Part shown: positions 21,160 to 56,302 of the stretch, piece by piece
Numbering within the stretch: the stretch's first letter is position 1
Layout: every line of letters begins with the position of its first letter
DNA from: Bacteroidota bacterium
GTDB lineage: Bacteria > Bacteroidota > Bacteroidia > CAILMK01 > JACPUW01
Direction: 5' to 3'
NCBI GenBank assembly: GCA_016192035.1
Contig: JACPUW010000030.1
Coordinates: 194,322 to 258,321, forward strand
Length of the DNA stretch: 64,000 nucleotides
Made by a program: the position numbers and the translations under genes
The notes under the pieces: generated by a model
What the model saw: only the letters and a program-made list of their open reading frames with translations
Told to the model about the DNA's origin: nothing
The model's database searches: none

Positions 21160-21246
21160 GGCGCGCCGCGCATGGTAGTGACATGCACTTGGAATGGCCC
21201 TATATTTATAATCAATCTGAACACCATCAGGGATATTTTCGCGGGC

Positions 21247-21981
21247 ATGGAGAGTAGCCCTAAATGGCCAATCAAGCTGGGAAATAAGCCTTTTGCCTTT
21301 CGCGATTACCTACGAGAATTTGTCTATGGAGGTATTGATGGCAGTGTTACCACCTTTGCCGTGGTGGCAGGCGCCACAGGGGGCCATTTGGAAAGCAGTG
21401 TGGTGATCATCTTGGGAATTGCCAATCTGCTGGCCGACGGTTTCGCCATGAGCGTGGGAAGCTACCTGAGCTCTAAATCAGATAAAGAGAACTACCATAA
21501 GCACTTGGCCCAGGAGTACTGGGAAATTGAACATATGCGTGAATCGGAGGTAGATGAGATAAGGGCCGTGTACCACAGGTATGGTTTTAGGGGGAAGCTA
21601 TTGGACGATGTGGTGGCCCACATCACTGCCGACAAGGACCGGTGGGTGGAGGTGATGATGAAAGAAGAATTGGAAATGCAAAAGGAAACCAAAACCCCCA
21701 TGGGCATGGGCCTGGCAACTTTCTTGGCTTTCGTGGTCATGGGTTTTATCCCACTGGCCGTGTATGTGGTTGATTATTTTATTGCTCCAGTGCCCCATGT
21801 GTTTGCCATCTCATCAGTCATGACAGCCTTGGTTTTTATGTACATTGGTTTTGTGAAAGGCAGGGTTACTGAGGCCGGTAGGTGGCGCGGGCTATTTGAA
21901 ACCTTGCTCCTTGGGGGCGTGGCAGCCATCCTTTCCTACTTGGTGGGCCATTGGCTCGAAGCCTTGGTCACTACGCGGTAG
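21247..21981 (+). CDS. VIT1/CCC1-family transporter
   Basis: Membrane protein of 244 residues related to the vacuolar iron/manganese transporters CCC1/VIT1. The family signature is visible: [24 protein letters not shown] in the first helix (with the metal-pathway Asp), then [22 protein letters not shown] in the second. A hydrophilic, Glu-rich helical segment follows (about residues 90-150, the metal-binding-domain position), then three more hydrophobic segments. ATG 21247 is preferred to the earlier GTG-type start at 21172, which overlaps the region just after the groEL terminator. Predicted substrate is Fe2+ or Mn2+ by family only. No regulator such as Fur is evident nearby. Confidence 0.85.
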
Positions 21982-23355: not shown

Positions 23356-24111
23356 TTAACGAAATGGGCTTATTGATATAGTATTTGACAGCACCCTGTT
23401 GCCCCGTCGGTCTATAAATGCCTTTTTACCATCCAGAATTACCACCGCCAGGTCTAAGGCATATTCCCCAAAGTAACCAATGCTGTCATACACAGGTGCT
23501 ACCACTTCCTTCCCCTTTTCGTCAATAAAGCCGAGTTTGCCATTTAGTTCCACTAGGGCCCATTGGGAATAGGCATCCCAGAATAATCCAATGCTGTCAT
23601 ACACAGGTGCTACCACTTCCTTCCCCTTAGCGTCTATAAATCCGAGTTTGCCATCCAGTTTCACCAGGGCCCAATGGGAATAGGCATCCCAGAATAATCC
23701 AATGCTGTCATACACAGGCGCTACCACTTCCTTCCCCTTAGCGTCTATAAATCCGAGTTTGCCATTTAGTTCCACCAGGGCCCATTGGGAATAGGCATCC
23801 CAGAAAAATCCAATGCTGTCATACACAGGTGCTACCACTTCCTTCCCCTTTTCGTCAATAAAGCCGAGTTTGCCATCCAGTTTCACCAGGGCCCAATGGG
23901 AATAGGCATCCCAGAAGAATCCAATGCTGTCATACACAGGCGCTACCACTTCCTTCCCCTTTTCGTCAATAAAGCCGAGTTTGCCATCCAGTTTCACCAG
24001 GGCCCATTGGGAGTGGTTTTCGCCATAAGGGTTTATATGGTCATAGGATTGCTGGGCAATGGCTGGAAAGATGACTGCCAACGTGAATAGGTGGGTAAGT
24101 AAGATTCGCAT
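23356..24111 (-). CDS. secreted WG-repeat protein
   Basis: The 251-residue protein has an N-terminal signal peptide (ILLTHLFTLAVIFPAIAQ), then six WG-type repeats of 37 residues with the core WALVKLDGKLGFIDEKGKEV, joined by VAPVYDSIGFFWDAYS. The first five copies are nearly identical; they alternate between KLDG and ELNG forms and between ...YSH and ...YSQ ends. The sixth is diverged (LAVVILDGKKAFIDRRGNRV). WG repeats form beta-rich ligand-binding modules; the ligand is unknown. The near-identity at the DNA level points to recent duplication or gene conversion. It is convergent with the DUF6048-like gene. The 206-base spacer between it and the next gene shows nothing I can name. Confidence 0.88.
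   Translation of the reverse strand: MRILLTHLFTLAVIFPAIAQQSYDHINPYGENHSQWALVKLDGKLGFIDEKGKEVVAPVYDSIGFFWDAYSHWALVKLDGKLGFIDEKGKEVVAPVYDSIGFFWDAYSQWALVELNGKLGFIDAKGKEVVAPVYDSIGLFWDAYSHWALVKLDGKLGFIDAKGKEVVAPVYDSIGLFWDAYSQWALVELNGKLGFIDEKGKEVVAPVYDSIGYFGEYALDLAVVILDGKKAFIDRRGNRVLSNTISISPFR
23475..24012 (-). repeat. 111-bp tandem repeat array inside the WG-repeat gene
   Basis: The marker TGCTGTCATACACAGG recurs at 23481, 23592, 23703, 23814 and 23925, a constant spacing of exactly 111 bases (37 codons). Copies differ at only a few sites, and alternating variants give a partial 222-base higher-order period. Such arrays can change copy number by recombination or slippage without shifting frame. 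Confidence 0.93.
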
Positions 24112-24317: not shown

Positions 24318-24734
24318 TCAATTCATCACGTGAAAGCCCTTAATAAAGCTCTCCTTATTGCCCGCCTTGTCTATAGCATCCACTTTCACTATAAAGTCGG
24401 CCATGGTGGTGGTGAGTGCCACGGTTACCTCTTCGTCCACCAGCAAGTATTTTTCGGTACTTGTATAGCTTTTAAGCACATACACGGAGTCTATAGAGGA
24501 GTTCGTTACCGTGAGTGTGGCCGTGCTTAGGGCTACATTGTCTTGTATTTCAAAGTGAAGCGGCACCTGGGCACCTACTGGGTACATGCTGGCCAGTATT
24601 TCTACCCACTCAAGCGTGGGTTTTTGGGTGTCGGCCGGTTGGTCGTCCGGGTCGGGCTTTTCTTTGGCGCAGGGGCCTACCGCCATAAAACCAAGGGTTG
24701 AGGCTAGAAGAATGAAGGTTTTTAGCTGTGACAT
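24318..24734 (-). CDS. small secreted Ig-like protein, possible lipoprotein
   Basis: Protein of 138 residues, last gene of the redox operon (30 bases after its neighbour). It has a signal peptide (TFILLASTLGFMAVG) and a cysteine at VGPC that may be lipid-modified, followed by an acidic linker KEKPDPDDQPADTQ. The mature domain (about residues 38-138) resembles Ig-like/DUF4625 beta-sandwiches: PTLEWVEILASMYPVGAQV, FEIQDNVALSTATLTV and VDAIDKAGNKES. No heme motif. The DUF4625 link is tentative. Its place in the operon suggests a structural or surface role beside the cytochromes. Confidence 0.6.
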   Translation of the reverse strand: MSQLKTFILLASTLGFMAVGPCAKEKPDPDDQPADTQKPTLEWVEILASMYPVGAQVPLHFEIQDNVALSTATLTVTNSSIDSVYVLKSYTSTEKYLLVDEEVTVALTTTMADFIVKVDAIDKAGNKESFIKGFHVMN

Positions 24735-24764
24735 AGTATGTGAGTGTTTGATATTACAATGGCA

Positions 24765-25148
24765 TCAATCATTTTTTGCGCCGCTTTCTATCCAGCGGCT
24801 AATGGTTTCTATTTCAAAACCAGGTATGGGGCCGCTGGGTGGCATGGTGGTGGGAATTCCTTTTAAATAGCCCAGTATTAGGCTGTTGTCTGGCACTTGT
24901 ATGTCCACATAGGGAGCGCGGAGTCCATCTAGCATTAGTTGGTTGTATGACAAGCTTGGCACCAGTTTTAGCTTGCTGTGCCTATCGCTATGGCAATTGG
25001 TACAGTACAGATTAAATATGGGCTGTATGTCATTTGCAAATGAAACAGATTTTTGGTCAGGGTCTTGACCTGGCCCTGTAAAAGGGCCTTCGTCATACGT
25101 ACAGGCTCCTAATGCCAGACCAATGGTTATCAAGGCTATGAGTTTCAT
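24765..25148 (-). CDS. monoheme c-type cytochrome lipoprotein (CxxCH)
   Basis: Lipoprotein of 127 residues. The signal peptide ends in the lipobox LGAC (Cys16), and the mature N-terminus is CTYDEGPF. A heme c attachment site CTNCH lies at residues 49-53, after a typical NDIQPIFNLY helix. MPPSG further on may supply the axial Met, and IETISRWIESGAKND is the closing helix of the fold. Expected role is one-electron transfer while anchored to the outer or inner membrane. The acidic DE pair four and five residues from the lipid Cys resembles a surface-export signal (inference). Neighbours are a second heme lipoprotein, a barrel and a soluble cytochrome. Confidence 0.85.
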   Translation of the reverse strand: MKLIALITIGLALGACTYDEGPFTGPGQDPDQKSVSFANDIQPIFNLYCTNCHSDRHSKLKLVPSLSYNQLMLDGLRAPYVDIQVPDNSLILGYLKGIPTTMPPSGPIPGFEIETISRWIESGAKND

Positions 25149-25160
25149 TCTATACGGGGT

Positions 25161-25601
25161 TTAATTGTCGAGGGCCCCCTGGGCTATCCAGGTGTATATC
25201 AAATCGATCTGTGCCTGTGGCAACTTTTCTAGGTCTTTGGGCATGGGGGTATATATGCCTACCATATGCTTGTAGAGTATGCTTTCCTTGGGCAATGTGG
25301 GATTCACATAGGGCGCTTTGGCTCCTTCGGTGAGCAGTTGCTCATGGGCCACTGGGGGCCTTAGGTCAAGAAATTCGTGGTGGGGATTGTGACAGCCCTG
25401 CACGCAATTGGCTGTGAATATGGGGACTATTTGAGCTCGAAAGGCCACCGTATCGGCAAGAAGGGTGGGTTCGGGTATGTTAACACCGTTGGTGTCTGGG
25501 CCAGGCTTTGCTTTTTTCGGCACGAAAGGCCCCTCGTCCCAAGCACATGCCTGTGCCATCCAAGTACACATAAGTATTGGAATTATCGTATTGATTTTCA
25601 T
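25161..25601 (-). CDS. c-type cytochrome-like lipoprotein with CxxxCH site
   Basis: Lipoprotein of 146 residues from the ATG at 25601 (an in-frame ATG at 25649 overlaps the preceding gene and lacks a signal directly after it). Lipobox is AQAC (Cys19), with mature start CAWDEGPF. The heme-like site is CVQGCH at residues 66-71, with three residues between the cysteines instead of two, preceded by IVPIFTAN. MPKDLEKL may carry the axial Met, and IDLIYTWIAQGALDN is the closing helix. The layout matches the CxxCH lipoprotein next to it, 12 bases downstream, so they are diverged paralogues. Similar CxxxCH proteins are known in Bacteroidota; heme loading is not certain. Confidence 0.8.
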   Translation of the reverse strand: MKINTIIPILMCTWMAQACAWDEGPFVPKKAKPGPDTNGVNIPEPTLLADTVAFRAQIVPIFTANCVQGCHNPHHEFLDLRPPVAHEQLLTEGAKAPYVNPTLPKESILYKHMVGIYTPMPKDLEKLPQAQIDLIYTWIAQGALDN

Positions 25602-25611
25602 TGGGGTATCA

Positions 25612-26508
25612 TTATTTTCTCCAAAAGTTCTTTTGTAGGTTAAATCCAATTAGAAACTCGCCAAGCAGCAAATCGCCGGCAGGACCGGTGTAGAGTTGCG
25701 TTTCCAATATTTTGTTTGAATTGCTCACAAATACTTGGAAAACATGGTTTGCGGTGCCAAACTCAAAGCCAAGCGAAAAGGGATTTTTGAAACCATCTGA
25801 CCGGTTGTTGAATACATGGGCGTATTCGGCCACCACGGCTGAATTGAATCCAAGCCCTAACCGTGCACTGGTGCTCAGCACCATATAAAAGTTGTCGTGG
25901 TAGGCGGGTACAAGGTTGCGGTACACCAGTATAGGGCTCGCAGTAAGGCTAATTTTCTCCCCAATTTTGCTTGATATTATCACTTGGGTATTATAGGCCA
26001 ACCGGTGGGCGGGCTTATATACAAATGCGGTGGTATCGTCTTCAAACAGGGCCCCGGACGGCACATTGGGAAATGGTTCGGTCTGCACCGAGGCGTTTTG
26101 ATATAGCGCTATGGACACGGGCATGGTATAATTGCTGGTTTGCTTGGCCAATAACCACTTATACTCTATGTCATAGGTTTTTAATTGGTTGGTACGGCCA
26201 ATTTTAAAATAAGCGCGGTCATGTATTGACCAACCCACGGCCATGCGCATCACGGCGGGCAAGTCCAGGCCTAGGAAGTCTTGTACCAAACCCTGGTCAA
26301 GTGTCACAAAACCAAATCGGTGCTGTATTTCAAATTGCCAAGTCCTGGCGGCAAAAACCCTGGTGGTTTGGGTATTGACCAGCTGCGTGCCTGAAAACCC
26401 CGGTTCGGCAAATTGGCGGGTATTGGAGCTGTCTTGACCTTGGGCCTGCGGGTGCCACCATAGCATGGTGCCCAGGGCCATTATGGCAAGTTTGGTTGTA
26501 TAAGTCAT
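25612..26508 (-). CDS. DUF5777-family outer-membrane beta-barrel protein
   Basis: Protein of 298 residues with a signal peptide (LAIMALGTMLWWHPQAQGQ) and an all-beta mature part typical of DUF5777: TRVFAARTWQFEIQHRFG, FLGLDLPAVMRMAVGWSI, RAYFKIGRTNQLKTYDIEYK, and a final strand GEFLIGFNLQKNFW. It probably forms a barrel in the outer membrane. Function is not established for the family. Here it sits between a cytochrome c (6 bases upstream) and two heme lipoproteins (10 bases downstream), so a porin-like role in electron or small-molecule passage is plausible but inferred. Confidence 0.82.
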   Translation of the reverse strand: MTYTTKLAIMALGTMLWWHPQAQGQDSSNTRQFAEPGFSGTQLVNTQTTRVFAARTWQFEIQHRFGFVTLDQGLVQDFLGLDLPAVMRMAVGWSIHDRAYFKIGRTNQLKTYDIEYKWLLAKQTSNYTMPVSIALYQNASVQTEPFPNVPSGALFEDDTTAFVYKPAHRLAYNTQVIISSKIGEKISLTASPILVYRNLVPAYHDNFYMVLSTSARLGLGFNSAVVAEYAHVFNNRSDGFKNPFSLGFEFGTANHVFQVFVSNSNKILETQLYTGPAGDLLLGEFLIGFNLQKNFWRK

Positions 26509-26514
26509 ATAGTG

Positions 26515-26946
26515 TCAATTTGATAAGTTACGTATGTAGTTTACCAGGTGCCAACGCTGGGTTTCCGAAAGCCCCTGTTTGTATGGGGCCATTGTTCCAC
26601 GACCCTCGGTTATTTTCCAGAAAATTTCACCATCAGATTGACTCTGAATAGCATTGCTGCTCAAGTTGGCAGGTTTTGTGGGCAATCCGGCACCTGCGGG
26701 CCCGTCGCCCTGTCCCAGCTTGCCGTGGCAGGTCCAGCAGTTTTGTTGAAATATCCTTTGCCCCTGGGCCAGCGATGCCGGTGAAGGTTCTATGGGGTTC
26801 TTGGTGTTTTTGGCCCAATCGGGGGCGGTCCAAGCGCCGTCTTGTCCTGTGGTGGAACCATAGGTACCCAACATAAGGACGGCAACAATTATTAAGCGAA
26901 TATTCACTAACATATGGGCCAGACTAAAGGAACCGTTCATTTGCAT
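26515..26946 (-). CDS. periplasmic monoheme cytochrome c
   Basis: Class I cytochrome c of 143 residues with an N-terminal signal (LIIVAVLMLG, likely cut near STTGQ). The heme site CWTCHGKLGQGDGPAG is at residues 70-74, in the context ASLAQGQRIFQQN, and MAPYKQ supplies the axial Met. The C-terminal helix is WHLVNYIRNLS. The ATG at 26946 follows an A-rich leader; an ATG at 26913 would also give a good signal peptide. There are 5 bases between the TetR gene and this start and 6 before the barrel gene, so it belongs to one operon. It is soluble or signal-anchored in the periplasm and could pass electrons to the lipoprotein cytochromes. Confidence 0.9.
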   Translation of the reverse strand: MQMNGSFSLAHMLVNIRLIIVAVLMLGTYGSTTGQDGAWTAPDWAKNTKNPIEPSPASLAQGQRIFQQNCWTCHGKLGQGDGPAGAGLPTKPANLSSNAIQSQSDGEIFWKITEGRGTMAPYKQGLSETQRWHLVNYIRNLSN

Positions 26947-26951
26947 TGTGT

Positions 26952-27545
26952 TTATGCTTTTTGTAGGCTTATCAATCGGAGCAAGTCATCTACTAACCTG
27001 CTTCCTTCCACCATCAAGTCAAACCTAAACTGGGAAATCCTCCATTTAAACATTTGAAGCCTAAACGCGCCCATCGTTATGTGCAAGAGTTCATTCGCAC
27101 CTATACTATTGGTAAAAACCCCTTCCATTTGCCCGTTTTCTATCACCGGCAACAAGTGTTTCGTCTTGGTGCCTATCAGCTTCTGGTAGGCCTTGTTCAC
27201 TTCTCCCTGTGCTTCCAGCAGGCCGTCACTGAATACGGCCATCACAAAGTGTGGGTGTTGTTTAAAAAAACCAAATTGATTGATCAACAGCTTTCTATAC
27301 TTGGTCTCAGGGCCGTCTTCAGGCAGTATGGCACCGCCCAAGCGCAAGTCCATGTCGTTTGAGAGGTACTCAAGCATGTGCAGTATGATGGATTCTTTTG
27401 AAGCAAAGTGCCGGTAAATGGCACTCTCCGAAAATCCGATTTCCTTGGCCAAGTTTTTAATGGTGAGACTACCCACTCCGCTGGTACTTAGTAATTTACC
27501 TGCTTTCTCTAAAATTTCGAGTTGTCTTGGACTTAGCTCTGTCAC
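26952..27545 (-). CDS. TetR/AcrR-family transcriptional regulator
   Basis: DNA-binding regulator of 197 residues. The N-terminal helix-turn-helix reads LTIKNLAKEIGFSESAIYRHFASKESI, a textbook TetR motif; the C-terminal two thirds is the helical ligand-binding and dimer domain (RKLLINQFGFFKQHPHFVMAVF). The GTG at 27545 (TELSPRQLEILEKAG) is preferred to an ATG 16 codons upstream, because the TATATTTG promoter box at 27571-27578 lies inside that longer frame and family members begin at this point. It is the first gene of the redox operon and probably controls it. The ligand is unknown. Confidence 0.9.
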   Translation of the reverse strand: MTELSPRQLEILEKAGKLLSTSGVGSLTIKNLAKEIGFSESAIYRHFASKESIILHMLEYLSNDMDLRLGGAILPEDGPETKYRKLLINQFGFFKQHPHFVMAVFSDGLLEAQGEVNKAYQKLIGTKTKHLLPVIENGQMEGVFTNSIGANELLHITMGAFRLQMFKWRISQFRFDLMVEGSRLVDDLLRLISLQKA

Positions 27546-27570
27546 TTGGTAGGATGTGAATGGACGCTCA

Positions 27571-27578
27571 CAAATATA
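27571..27578 (-). promoter_or_regulatory. Bacteroidota -7 box (TATATTTG) for the TetR-cytochrome operon
   Basis: Reading the minus strand, TATATTTG matches TAnnTTTG and lies 25 bases before the GTG start. No good -33 TTG is seen at the usual distance. It is the only promoter-like sequence in the gap after the M1 peptidase gene. Confidence 0.5.
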
Positions 27579-27611
27579 GGGCTGTGAAAGCACATAGGCA
27601 TCGTGCCCCTT

Positions 27612-30512
27612 TCAATTATTGAAACTTACCCCTTCCTTCACCAGTTTCACCGGGTTTAATGACTCTAGGCGCAGGATAAAGGTAATCCTATCCAGTATGC
27701 CTAAGGTGTTGAGAGTTACCAATTCATGTAATTGTTTGGAATACACCAGGGGGACATAGATGCTAAATATATCTTTGGCCAGGGCCAATTCCAAACCTGC
27801 TTCCGCCATCAAGGTATGGTTGGCCAGCTGGTTGTTTACCCTAATAGGGTCGGGTGTATAGGCTACATTGGCATACAGCCTAAAGGGAGTTTTTGGCAAG
27901 GCCATCCCCACATTGGCCGCAAGTAAGTATCGGTTGCTGCCAATTCCAGCAAGCGGTGTGGTCAGGCCACCTTCACTGGGTGCCAGTTGGCGCCACAACA
28001 TGCGGTTTCTGGCCCGCCGATCCAGCATGGTCGCATCTAGCAGGTAATCAAAGCGACCACTCGGGTTGGTCATCCAGAGGGAATATGCTTGGCGTTGTTC
28101 TGGCGCAAAAACAAACCCACCGGCAAATAGCCTAAACCGTATGTCTTTCTTGTGCATATAAGGAAAACTCCCGGTGATTTCCGTCCTTAGCTGTGTAAAC
28201 TCGGCCCCCATGCGCATTGTTGATGTCCATTGCCAGTTAAATACCGCCTTGGTATTGTCAAGTACATAGCCCATGTCTAAGTATCTGTTTATGTAAGAAT
28301 ATGTTAACTGGTCGTTCTGTCCTTTGCTATAAATGTATATTGCCCTGGCCCATACCCATTCTTTTAGGTGGCGGGCTTGGGTAGCCTGCCACTCATACCG
28401 CAGGTGGAGCTGTACCCGCTTTTGCTGCTGATAAGCGTAGGAGTGTTGAATAGGATTGTCCCTAGTAATTAAGCTAAAAGCCAGGCTATTTATAGATGCC
28501 GAAAGGGCATGTCGCCTACCGGGGGTATGCCAAAACCAATTGCGCTGCAAATTGGCCAACCAATTGATTATTTCACTTTTTAGGCCGAACATGGGTGCCA
28601 ATTGATATTCCCATTTGGGCTGGGGCAGCAAGGGGTTGAGTATGGCAAGTCCGGGCATGAAGCCATCGCTGGTGTTCAGTCCCACAAATGGCGCCAGTAC
28701 CACACGTCGCTCCCCAGGTTTTTCTGTTGGGGCGTATAACTTTATTTTCAGTGGTTTCCCCCGGTCAAGGAATGCCGTATTCCGCTGCACATTGTCCTCA
28801 AGCACGGCCAATCGGTGGTTGATCAAAACCTGCTCCACGCCAGGCCCTGTTGCCAGCAGGGTGTCGCCTTCACAGCCCTCCACCCAAAAACCGCGGACTC
28901 CAAGGCCGTCATAGTCGGTAAACGATACATGGAATGGGGCGGTAAGTGCACCTGACTTTTTTATCAATACGGCCGGTTCACCCTGGCCGGTTTTTGCTCT
29001 TTTATCTGCCACATCGTAGTCATACGTGGTATAGGGGCCCAATAGACCGTCAAAGAACCAATCCAAGTCCTTACCCGATACAGACTCAAATGTACTCTTA
29101 ACATCTTGTGGGCCTGGGTGTTTATGCTTCCACCGTCCAAAATATCGGTGCAGGCAAGAATCCATGGTTTCCTTGCCCAAATACGCCTCCAAAAATGACA
29201 GGTGCTTTGCCGTTTTGTTATATACGCTTAGGCCATAGTTCACATTGTCATAGTCATTAGAGTGTTGACTGCAAGCCATGTCCAGGCGCTGCCGGTTAAA
29301 ATGGGATAGCCAAATGCTGTTGAGCTTATCATAGCTGCTTATACCGCTATATTCATAGAAGCGGTTCTCTACATACGTGTTAAATCCTTCGTCAAGGTAC
29401 GGCCAGCGCCGTTCATTTGAAGCCAACATGCCCTGAAACCAGTTGTGTCCCACCTCATGCATGATCACGCGTTCCAGCATGGACGATCGCGCGTTGACTA
29501 TGGTAATGGTAGGGTACTCCATTCCTTCGCCGGCACTAATGGGGCCACCCACCGCGCTCACATTGTCATAAGGATAGGGTCCCACCACACGGGAATAATG
29601 TGCCACGGCCTGGGACACATAGTCCACCCCATCCAACCACTGGCTTATGCCTTTTTCATAAAAAACCCATGCCCGTACCTGCTTGCCGCTGGGCAGGGTG
29701 ATGTCTTCAAAGTCCACCGTAAAATCGGGATTGGCAAACCAAGCAAAATCATGTACCATATCTTGGTGGTAATGAAGGGTCTTTTTTGAACCCATTCGTG
29801 ATGGTGGGTTGCCGCCTTCTTTCAACTGTGCCAACCAGTGGAGCTCGTCTTCCGTCAGCAGGTTTCCGGTGGCAGCCACCACATATTCGCTTGGCAGGGT
29901 AATAAACACGTCATAACTCCCAAAATCGTTAAAGTACTCTCCCATATCCAGATAAGGCATTCTGTGCCATCCTTTTTCGTCATACTTCACGGCTTTGGGG
30001 TACCATTGGGTCAGGCAGTAATAATTGCCATCATGGCCCAACCTTGAGAATACTTTGGGCAGTTTCAATGAAAAAGTAGCCGTTACCACTACCTGGCCAC
30101 CACCCTGAACCGGATCCGGCAATTTAAGGCCCACTATTTCGCCCGCAGGGTCTAGGGCAGCGTGTGGCACTGTTTGGCCGTCCACCATAAACCCAATGGC
30201 GGTATATCTGCCCATATCCCCGGCCTTGGCAAACCGGAATTCCATCTTCCCCAATCGATCGGCCTGGCGGCCAAAGGGGCTCGTTTTGTCGCCATAGGCA
30301 TTGGCCCATAGGTGGAAATATAGGGAGTCCAAAGCCACTGGCCCTTGGTTGTGGTAGGTCACCACGGCCTTGCCCACAAGTGTCTTGGCCTTTTCATCCA
30401 GTTCTACATCAATCAGGTAGTCCACCTGCTGCTGCCAGGCTTGGCCGCATACTGTGGAAAGATTGGTCAACACAATAACCAAGGTGAGTCCTAGTATCGA
30501 ATTCGCGCTCAT
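27612..30512 (-). CDS. M1-family zinc metallopeptidase (aminopeptidase N-like), secreted
   Basis: Secreted protein of 966 residues. ATG 30512 gives a signal peptide (ILGLTLVIVLTNLSTVCGQ); an earlier frame start at 30560 would overlap the promoter. The N-terminal beta domain is followed by the gluzincin active site HEVGHNWFQGM near residue 352, with the downstream zinc-ligand Glu in YLDEGFNTYVENRFYE. The substrate-site motif is GGPISAGEGMEYP, where family members usually have GAMEN-like sequence. The last 350 residues are aromatic, strand-rich and end in FN-type beta-strands, suggesting a barrel or beta-domain tail unusual for M1 enzymes but seen in Bacteroidota. It probably trims peptides outside the cytoplasm. 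Divergent from the TPR gene. Confidence 0.92.
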   Translation of the reverse strand: MSANSILGLTLVIVLTNLSTVCGQAWQQQVDYLIDVELDEKAKTLVGKAVVTYHNQGPVALDSLYFHLWANAYGDKTSPFGRQADRLGKMEFRFAKAGDMGRYTAIGFMVDGQTVPHAALDPAGEIVGLKLPDPVQGGGQVVVTATFSLKLPKVFSRLGHDGNYYCLTQWYPKAVKYDEKGWHRMPYLDMGEYFNDFGSYDVFITLPSEYVVAATGNLLTEDELHWLAQLKEGGNPPSRMGSKKTLHYHQDMVHDFAWFANPDFTVDFEDITLPSGKQVRAWVFYEKGISQWLDGVDYVSQAVAHYSRVVGPYPYDNVSAVGGPISAGEGMEYPTITIVNARSSMLERVIMHEVGHNWFQGMLASNERRWPYLDEGFNTYVENRFYEYSGISSYDKLNSIWLSHFNRQRLDMACSQHSNDYDNVNYGLSVYNKTAKHLSFLEAYLGKETMDSCLHRYFGRWKHKHPGPQDVKSTFESVSGKDLDWFFDGLLGPYTTYDYDVADKRAKTGQGEPAVLIKKSGALTAPFHVSFTDYDGLGVRGFWVEGCEGDTLLATGPGVEQVLINHRLAVLEDNVQRNTAFLDRGKPLKIKLYAPTEKPGERRVVLAPFVGLNTSDGFMPGLAILNPLLPQPKWEYQLAPMFGLKSEIINWLANLQRNWFWHTPGRRHALSASINSLAFSLITRDNPIQHSYAYQQQKRVQLHLRYEWQATQARHLKEWVWARAIYIYSKGQNDQLTYSYINRYLDMGYVLDNTKAVFNWQWTSTMRMGAEFTQLRTEITGSFPYMHKKDIRFRLFAGGFVFAPEQRQAYSLWMTNPSGRFDYLLDATMLDRRARNRMLWRQLAPSEGGLTTPLAGIGSNRYLLAANVGMALPKTPFRLYANVAYTPDPIRVNNQLANHTLMAEAGLELALAKDIFSIYVPLVYSKQLHELVTLNTLGILDRITFILRLESLNPVKLVKEGVSFNN

Positions 30513-30537
30513 GGTAAGGATTACTCGCGTGGGCAGG

Positions 30538-30545
30538 CAAAAGTA
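30538..30545 (-). promoter_or_regulatory. -7 box (TACTTTTG) for the M1 peptidase gene
   Basis: On the minus strand TACTTTTG fits TAnnTTTG, 26 bases before the ATG at 30512, which supports that start. No TTG lies at the standard spacing. Confidence 0.45.
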
Positions 30546-30560
30546 AATATACCCAACCAC

Positions 30561-56271: not shown

Positions 56272-56302
56272 TTTGAATGTAAGGTGATTGTACATACTTT
56301 TG
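56272..56302 (+). promoter_or_regulatory. complete Bacteroidota promoter (TTTG-N19-TACTTTTG)
   Basis: TTTG (56272-56275) is followed after exactly 19 bases by TACTTTTG (56295-56302), a textbook match to the -33/-7 consensus of the Bacteroidota sigma factor. The start codon of the lipoprotein gene is 28 bases after the -7 box. It is the best promoter in the window. Confidence 0.75.

Follow-up and report, generated by a model that had tools for sequence, protein, structure and literature searches.

MtrCAB, PioAB and MtoAB combine a quinol-fed periplasmic cytochrome with an outer-membrane barrel and heme proteins on the outer surface, the barrel consisting of 26 strands and holding an inserted decaheme cytochrome. 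In Cyc2, a single-heme cytochrome and an outer-membrane barrel of 16 strands form one fused protein (strand counts for MtrB-type barrels and Cyc2 from PMC8406198). Envelope redox roles are also served by YceI lipocalins (BcnA–LcoA; Cbp2D/E), in which an isoprenoid-quinone-binding YceI protein works with a cytochrome, while alternative complex III (ACIII), Qrc and Dsr are complexes of the inner membrane and not outer-membrane parts. At the level of heme domains, FoxE, a putative iron oxidase of photoferrotroph origin with two such domains, and PccH, a monoheme protein of Geobacter, are by profile and fold the closest solved relatives of a lipoprotein described below.

Here we analysed a stretch of 64,000 nucleotides from a Bacteroidota bacterium (the window; contig JACPUW010000030.1 of GCA_016192035.1, positions 194,322 to 258,321). 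It contains a gene cluster that has the same classes of parts as MtrCAB and its relatives, i.e. a periplasmic cytochrome, a barrel (of the DUF5777 family) and two candidate surface heme lipoproteins, LipA and LipB, and that may likewise be quinol-fed, but the barrel is predicted to have 12 rather than about 26 strands and each heme protein has a single heme motif. With Cyc2 it shares the combination of single-heme cytochrome and barrel, yet here these are encoded by separate genes, the carriers are lipid-anchored and no cytochrome is fused to a 16-strand porin. LipA has one FoxE-like heme domain instead of two, and we know of neither FoxE nor PccH occurring together with DUF5777. YceI proteins are partners of DUF5777 in most loci, but the window version is without YceI, and for BcnA–LcoA and Cbp2D/E no DUF5777 barrel is described. 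Genes for NrfD, FeS and multiheme proteins, as in ACIII, Qrc and Dsr, occur in some clusters of clade A, the group of DUF5777 loci in which the window is counted, and ACIII is encoded in the source genome. Overall, the gene set looks like an undescribed way to bring electrons to the outer membrane, of which the window holds one version. We found no published role for DUF5777 in the literature searched, nor an account of this module in the literature on DUF5777, on YceI in Bacteroidota or on T9SS and extracellular electron transfer.

Gene layout of the window cluster

An ORF check of the window confirmed six ORFs on the minus strand between 24318 and 27593, separated by intergenic gaps of 5, 6, 10, 12 and 30 bp and arranged in the order TetR, monoheme cytochrome c, DUF5777, LipA (CxxxCH), LipB (CxxCH) and Ig-like protein. 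Six tightly packed minus-strand genes with gaps of 5 to 30 bases had been proposed in a preliminary description, which is borne out by these ORFs and by the following family matches:

27612–30560, minus strand: M1 metallopeptidase (PF01433, E 4e-14), upstream of TetR
26952–27593, minus strand: TetR-family regulator (PF00440, E 3e-11), adjacent to the unit and not a conserved part of it
26515–26946, minus strand: class I monoheme cytochrome c (CWTCH), soluble/secreted (PF13442, E 7e-14; PF00034, E 2e-13)
25612–26508, minus strand: DUF5777 outer-membrane barrel, predicted 12 strands (PF19089, E 4e-59)
25161–25601, minus strand: LipA, putative monoheme cytochrome lipoprotein, CX3CH (CVQGCH), mature N-terminus CAWDEGPF
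24765–25148, minus strand: LipB, putative monoheme cytochrome lipoprotein, CxxCH (CTNCH), mature N-terminus CTYDEGPF
24318–24734, minus strand: Ig-like protein, probably a third lipoprotein (homologues in L053 and L054; DUF4625 similarity weak, below cut-off)

Since the M1 peptidase gene lies on the same strand and ends 18 bp before the GTG start of TetR (27593), the run may comprise seven genes; a second GTG (27545) is a better match to the usual TetR start. The order CytC, DUF5777, LipA with CVQGCH, LipB and Ig recurs, without TetR, in two Flavobacteriales MAGs (loci L053 and L054). At the equivalent place both have homologues of the Ig-like protein (41% and 40%, respectively) with a clear lipobox, so that this protein, previously described as secreted, is probably a lipoprotein. 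Directly downstream of the cluster lies a gene for a WG-repeat secreted protein with five near-identical repeats (23356–24111, minus strand), and a VIT1/CCC1-family iron/manganese transporter gene (21172–21981, plus strand; PF01988, E 2e-61) occupies the opposite strand in the interval that separates GroEL from the cluster.

The cluster had also been thought to be under TetR control, an idea that did not hold up: L053 and L054, which otherwise share the window's gene order, do without TetR, and although TetR matches were obtained in 22 of 149 genomes (source genome included), none of the 21 other homologues in the class adjoins DUF5777 or the cytochrome. For the 11 closest of them (43–57% identity) as for the weaker remainder, the neighbours, as named by eye, are other genes, mostly of efflux type and commonly encoding TolC-like and small membrane proteins. 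TetR, being neither conserved nor represented in L053 and L054, and with its relatives elsewhere, was rejected as a functional part of the unit; its presence in the window is probably incidental, and because no homologue adjoins DUF5777 or the cytochrome, any regulation of the cluster by TetR would be local at best. As to transcription signals, the sole match in the window to a Bacteroidota-type -33/-7 promoter is far off at 56272, at a frequency not above chance; sigma-70-type promoter matches are no commoner in the window than in shuffles, and terminator-like matches only modestly so.

The DUF5777 barrel and its heme lipoproteins

The window barrel matches PF19089 over the full length of the model (positions 1–247 of 247) with 200 bits, the curated cut-off being 23. 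Its AlphaFold2 model has 12 strands (mean pLDDT 91.5) and in a fold search resembles FapF, KdgM, NanC and the COG4313 channel, with FapF as the top match (Z 17.5, 8% identity), tied with sugar porins. Comparison by sequence with solved structures gave no convincing match (one at E 0.9); MtrAB and Cyc2 are absent among the fold matches listed for the model, an absence that excludes nothing. From standard barrel geometry with 12 strands and a tilt of about 40 degrees, we calculated a backbone diameter of about 22 Å, so that a folded cytochrome or heme domain would not fit inside and we see no unbroken chain of hemes through the membrane. In our reading the barrel would act as an anchor, an export gate or a small-molecule channel, and not as a sheath round a cytochrome. 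Across the phylum, 115 of the 296 Bacteroidota genomes sampled gave PF19089 matches, as against none of 14 control genomes, and 60 DUF5777 loci were chosen, spread down the list of positive genomes (the spread loci).

LipA and LipB belong to one family. In its alignment (A3, 38 sequences), the lipidated Cys, the heme motif C(x)nCH, a distal Met-Pro and, near the C-terminus, a Trp are invariant. As single sequences they give weak cytochrome matches or none, and Pfam and NCBIfam alone did not identify LipA. Compared with solved structures, the family profile, by contrast with single sequences, picked out FoxE (E 6e-11), hydrazine synthase alpha and PccH, and the same three are the best fold matches of the LipA model (Z 10.0, 8.8 and 6.4, respectively). 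By sequence and model, the LipA family has the heme motif, distal Met and fold of FoxE/PccH-like c-type cytochromes. The motif CVQGCH also occurs in LipA of L053 and L054. Stretched heme motifs are frequent in the family, with CX4CH in 31 of the 69 motifs of the spread loci (L146, L133, L160 and others), CX3CH in the window, L053 and L054, and CX5CH in a lipoprotein of L067.

All three family members of the source genome adjoin its two DUF5777 genes, namely the pair in the window and one accompanied by YceI on contig C20; in all sampled DUF5777-bearing genomes, source genome included, 47 of 57 small family members lie within 3.5 kb of DUF5777. By these counts the association of heme lipoproteins with DUF5777 is far beyond chance, and in the spread loci 55 lipoprotein matches fall within 2 kb of DUF5777 and two in the other 231 kb. 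Related heme lipoproteins are present also in genomes without DUF5777. In 12 loci without, or far from, a clear DUF5777 (L246–L257), neither YceI nor a cytochrome was found near the heme lipoprotein, which there is often located beside glycosyltransferase, epimerase or acyltransferase-like genes (named by eye).

The N-termini of these lipoproteins bear on where they may reside. A lipobox is present in 41 of 42 clade-A lipoproteins. Of these 41, 27 have K at position +3 and 37 have D at position +4, and many start C-x-K-D-E-G-P, which is close to the LES C-X-K-(D/E)2-X that has been shown to drive surface export (PMC5080379). The combination of K and an acidic residue at +3/+4 was found in 15 of 25 heme lipoproteins, but in only 3 of the 21 other lipoproteins encoded in these flanks. 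In the window pair (CAWDE and CTYDE), D-E is kept at +4/+5 and W or Y replaces K at +3. This replacement makes surface export less certain for the window pair, and LES rules differ between genera; display of LipA and LipB on the surface is plausible. Because their relatives bear surface-export-like signals, a crossing of electrons to the cell exterior is plausible as well.

Partner genes across Bacteroidota

Within five genes of DUF5777, a heme lipoprotein was found in 48 and YceI in 53 of the 60 spread loci. Among the 12 loci without a heme lipoprotein, a Pfam-confirmed Rieske [2Fe-2S] protein (PF00355) is present in seven and a plastocyanin/azurin-type cupredoxin (PF00127) in one, and of the other four, one is cut by a contig end. 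A small membrane-anchored OB-fold protein recurs in YceI-type loci (L125, L132, L134, L136 and others; tRNA_anti-like, PF12869 in L125 and L134). When used as a single query against genome contigs, the window barrel gave no match, but an alignment-based scan with clade-A barrels gave 42 loci. With the window counted, 37 of 43 loci have a cytochrome c next to DUF5777 and 41 have a heme lipoprotein, and several of the clade-A loci that miss a partner sit at contig ends. One clade-A cluster (L058) is on a contig labelled as a Gammaproteobacteria MAG, probably owing to a binning error. The barrel, soluble cytochrome and heme lipoproteins are thus kept together among related genomes, contrary to the refuting condition named in the preliminary description (that related genomes would seldom do so), and the pairing of barrel and heme lipoprotein is phylum-wide and not local.

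In a tree of 100 barrels, the partner changed once between YceI and CytC (rows with neither left out), and the carrier type changed 11 times. The window's DUF5777 clade has a soluble cytochrome instead of YceI, and often also secreted proteins and an inner-membrane module linked to quinones; the exact edge of this CytC clade is uncertain, given an SH-aLRT of 94 from a quick method. Since YceI proteins have been found with bound ubiquinone-8 or other isoprenoids (PMC9113575, PMC8981238), the two partners may be alternatives for one job, that of carrier in the periplasm; other roles, e.g. quenching of lipid peroxyl radicals, have also been proposed for YceI (PMC9113575).

Possible electron sources and secreted partners are encoded in clade-A clusters themselves, some of which comprise a multiheme cytochrome, a DsrO/QrcC-like FeS protein and NrfD, and many a NapH-like (Fer4)/TPR membrane protein, choice-of-anchor V proteins with a CxxCH heme motif and a T9SS tail, and lysyl-oxidase-like T9SS proteins. 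Among cultured strains, the NrfD type is represented in Flavobacterium (F. fluvii DSM 19978, F. alvei and F. franklandianum; loci L083–L085). The motif CSWACH of the NapH-like protein was considered as a heme site and rejected, being read as part of its Fer4_5 region. T9SS-tailed lysyl-oxidase-like proteins adjoin the barrel cluster in L059, L063, L068 and other clade-A loci; the protein of L059 has a His-rich copper-type motif, HPSHNHIHFDDW, which is missing in L068. The window cluster itself has neither a quinol-oxidising module nor a secreted partner. In its source genome, the only NrfD is ActC of ACIII, with other act genes around it (gene names read from the sequence), about 94 T9SS sorting tails score above cut-off, and choice-of-anchor V proteins bearing a heme motif are encoded at two places away from the cluster; homologues of the NapH/TPR and lysyl-oxidase-like proteins were not found there beyond shared repeat or tail domains.

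Proposed electron route and competing explanations

The swapping of heme, Rieske and cupredoxin carriers and the occurrence of quinone-linked partner genes strongly favour a redox unit, and the earlier suggestion that barrel, soluble cytochrome and heme lipoproteins work as one is supported by their conserved grouping as well. We consider it somewhat probable that this unit is an outer-membrane electron-delivery module, leading from the quinone pool to carriers fixed by DUF5777. Electrons from the menaquinone pool would enter via an inner-membrane quinol oxidase, in the window genome most likely ACIII and in relatives a dedicated, cluster-encoded NrfD/FeS or NapH-like complex. The soluble cytochrome, or in other loci YceI-bound quinone, would ferry them over the periplasm to LipA and LipB, which would sit in the outer membrane by their lipid anchors, with the 12-strand barrel holding or positioning them. 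The most speculative part of this route would be a transfer of electrons, by the carriers or by small redox molecules that pass the barrel, to acceptors at the surface or outside, including T9SS-secreted redox proteins. A broader version, which we regard as tentative, extends to the whole phylum: DUF5777 would be the part that stays the same in an undescribed modular system taking electrons from the quinone pool as far as the outer membrane or beyond it. The carriers on either side would be exchangeable, with YceI-bound quinone or cytochrome c on the inside and a lipoprotein of the heme, Rieske or copper type at the outer membrane, and some lineages would add T9SS-secreted redox partners.

Could the cluster instead be a miniature porin–cytochrome conduit of the MtrAB or Cyc2 kind, with a cytochrome inside the DUF5777 barrel and electrons running through it to the surface? 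The classes of parts do match, including heme lipoproteins with surface-export-like signals, and a single heme and a barrel of 16 strands suffice for Cyc2 (PMC8406198), but a predicted 12-strand barrel of about 22 Å leaves too little room for a folded heme domain, the window cluster encodes no decaheme protein and no heme–barrel fusion was recognised among clade-A loci. Of the porin–cytochrome-type path envisaged in the preliminary description, the conserved parts stand, but the case for a sheathed conduit is weakened, given 12 predicted strands compared with 26 in MtrB-type barrels (PMC8406198); a sheathed cytochrome is unlikely on the model, and we see very little probability in this explanation as a whole. 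Similarly improbable is that DUF5777 is an export gate, or a barrel for assembly, dedicated to the neighbouring lipoproteins, with their redox work being a separate matter. This role would accord with the barrel being encoded nearly always beside lipoproteins of varied cofactor and with FapF, its best structural match, being a polypeptide exporter. That match is shared with sugar porins at low identity, however, and an export gate leaves the YceI and cytochrome partners unexplained. In favour of such a gate, there is to our knowledge no settled answer as to which machine flips LES lipoproteins in Bacteroidota.

Envelope protection, in which the periplasmic partner (YceI or cytochrome c) and the lipid-anchored carrier would supply the outer membrane with electrons to quench lipid radicals, peroxides or NO, none of them reaching the outside, is unlikely, if less so than the conduit or the gate. 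The YceI protein BcnA and cytochrome b561 do quench peroxyl radicals (PMC9113575), and the clade-A loci L033, L055 and L070 adjoin RIC (di-iron NO/oxidative repair) and COX1-like genes. Yet protection has no need for surface-type lipoprotein signals, T9SS-secreted heme proteins or NrfD/FeS modules, all of which are common in clade A.

If electrons do reach the outer membrane by a route anchored by DUF5777, an overlooked means of using acceptors or enzymes beyond the inner membrane would be available to many bacteria that lack large multiheme conduits. Were electron delivery via DUF5777 to be shown, its design of swappable carriers would stand further apart from the known outer-membrane electron-transfer systems. 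Because heme, Rieske and copper carriers replace one another next to a single barrel family, this idea can be tested directly in cultured Flavobacterium strains.
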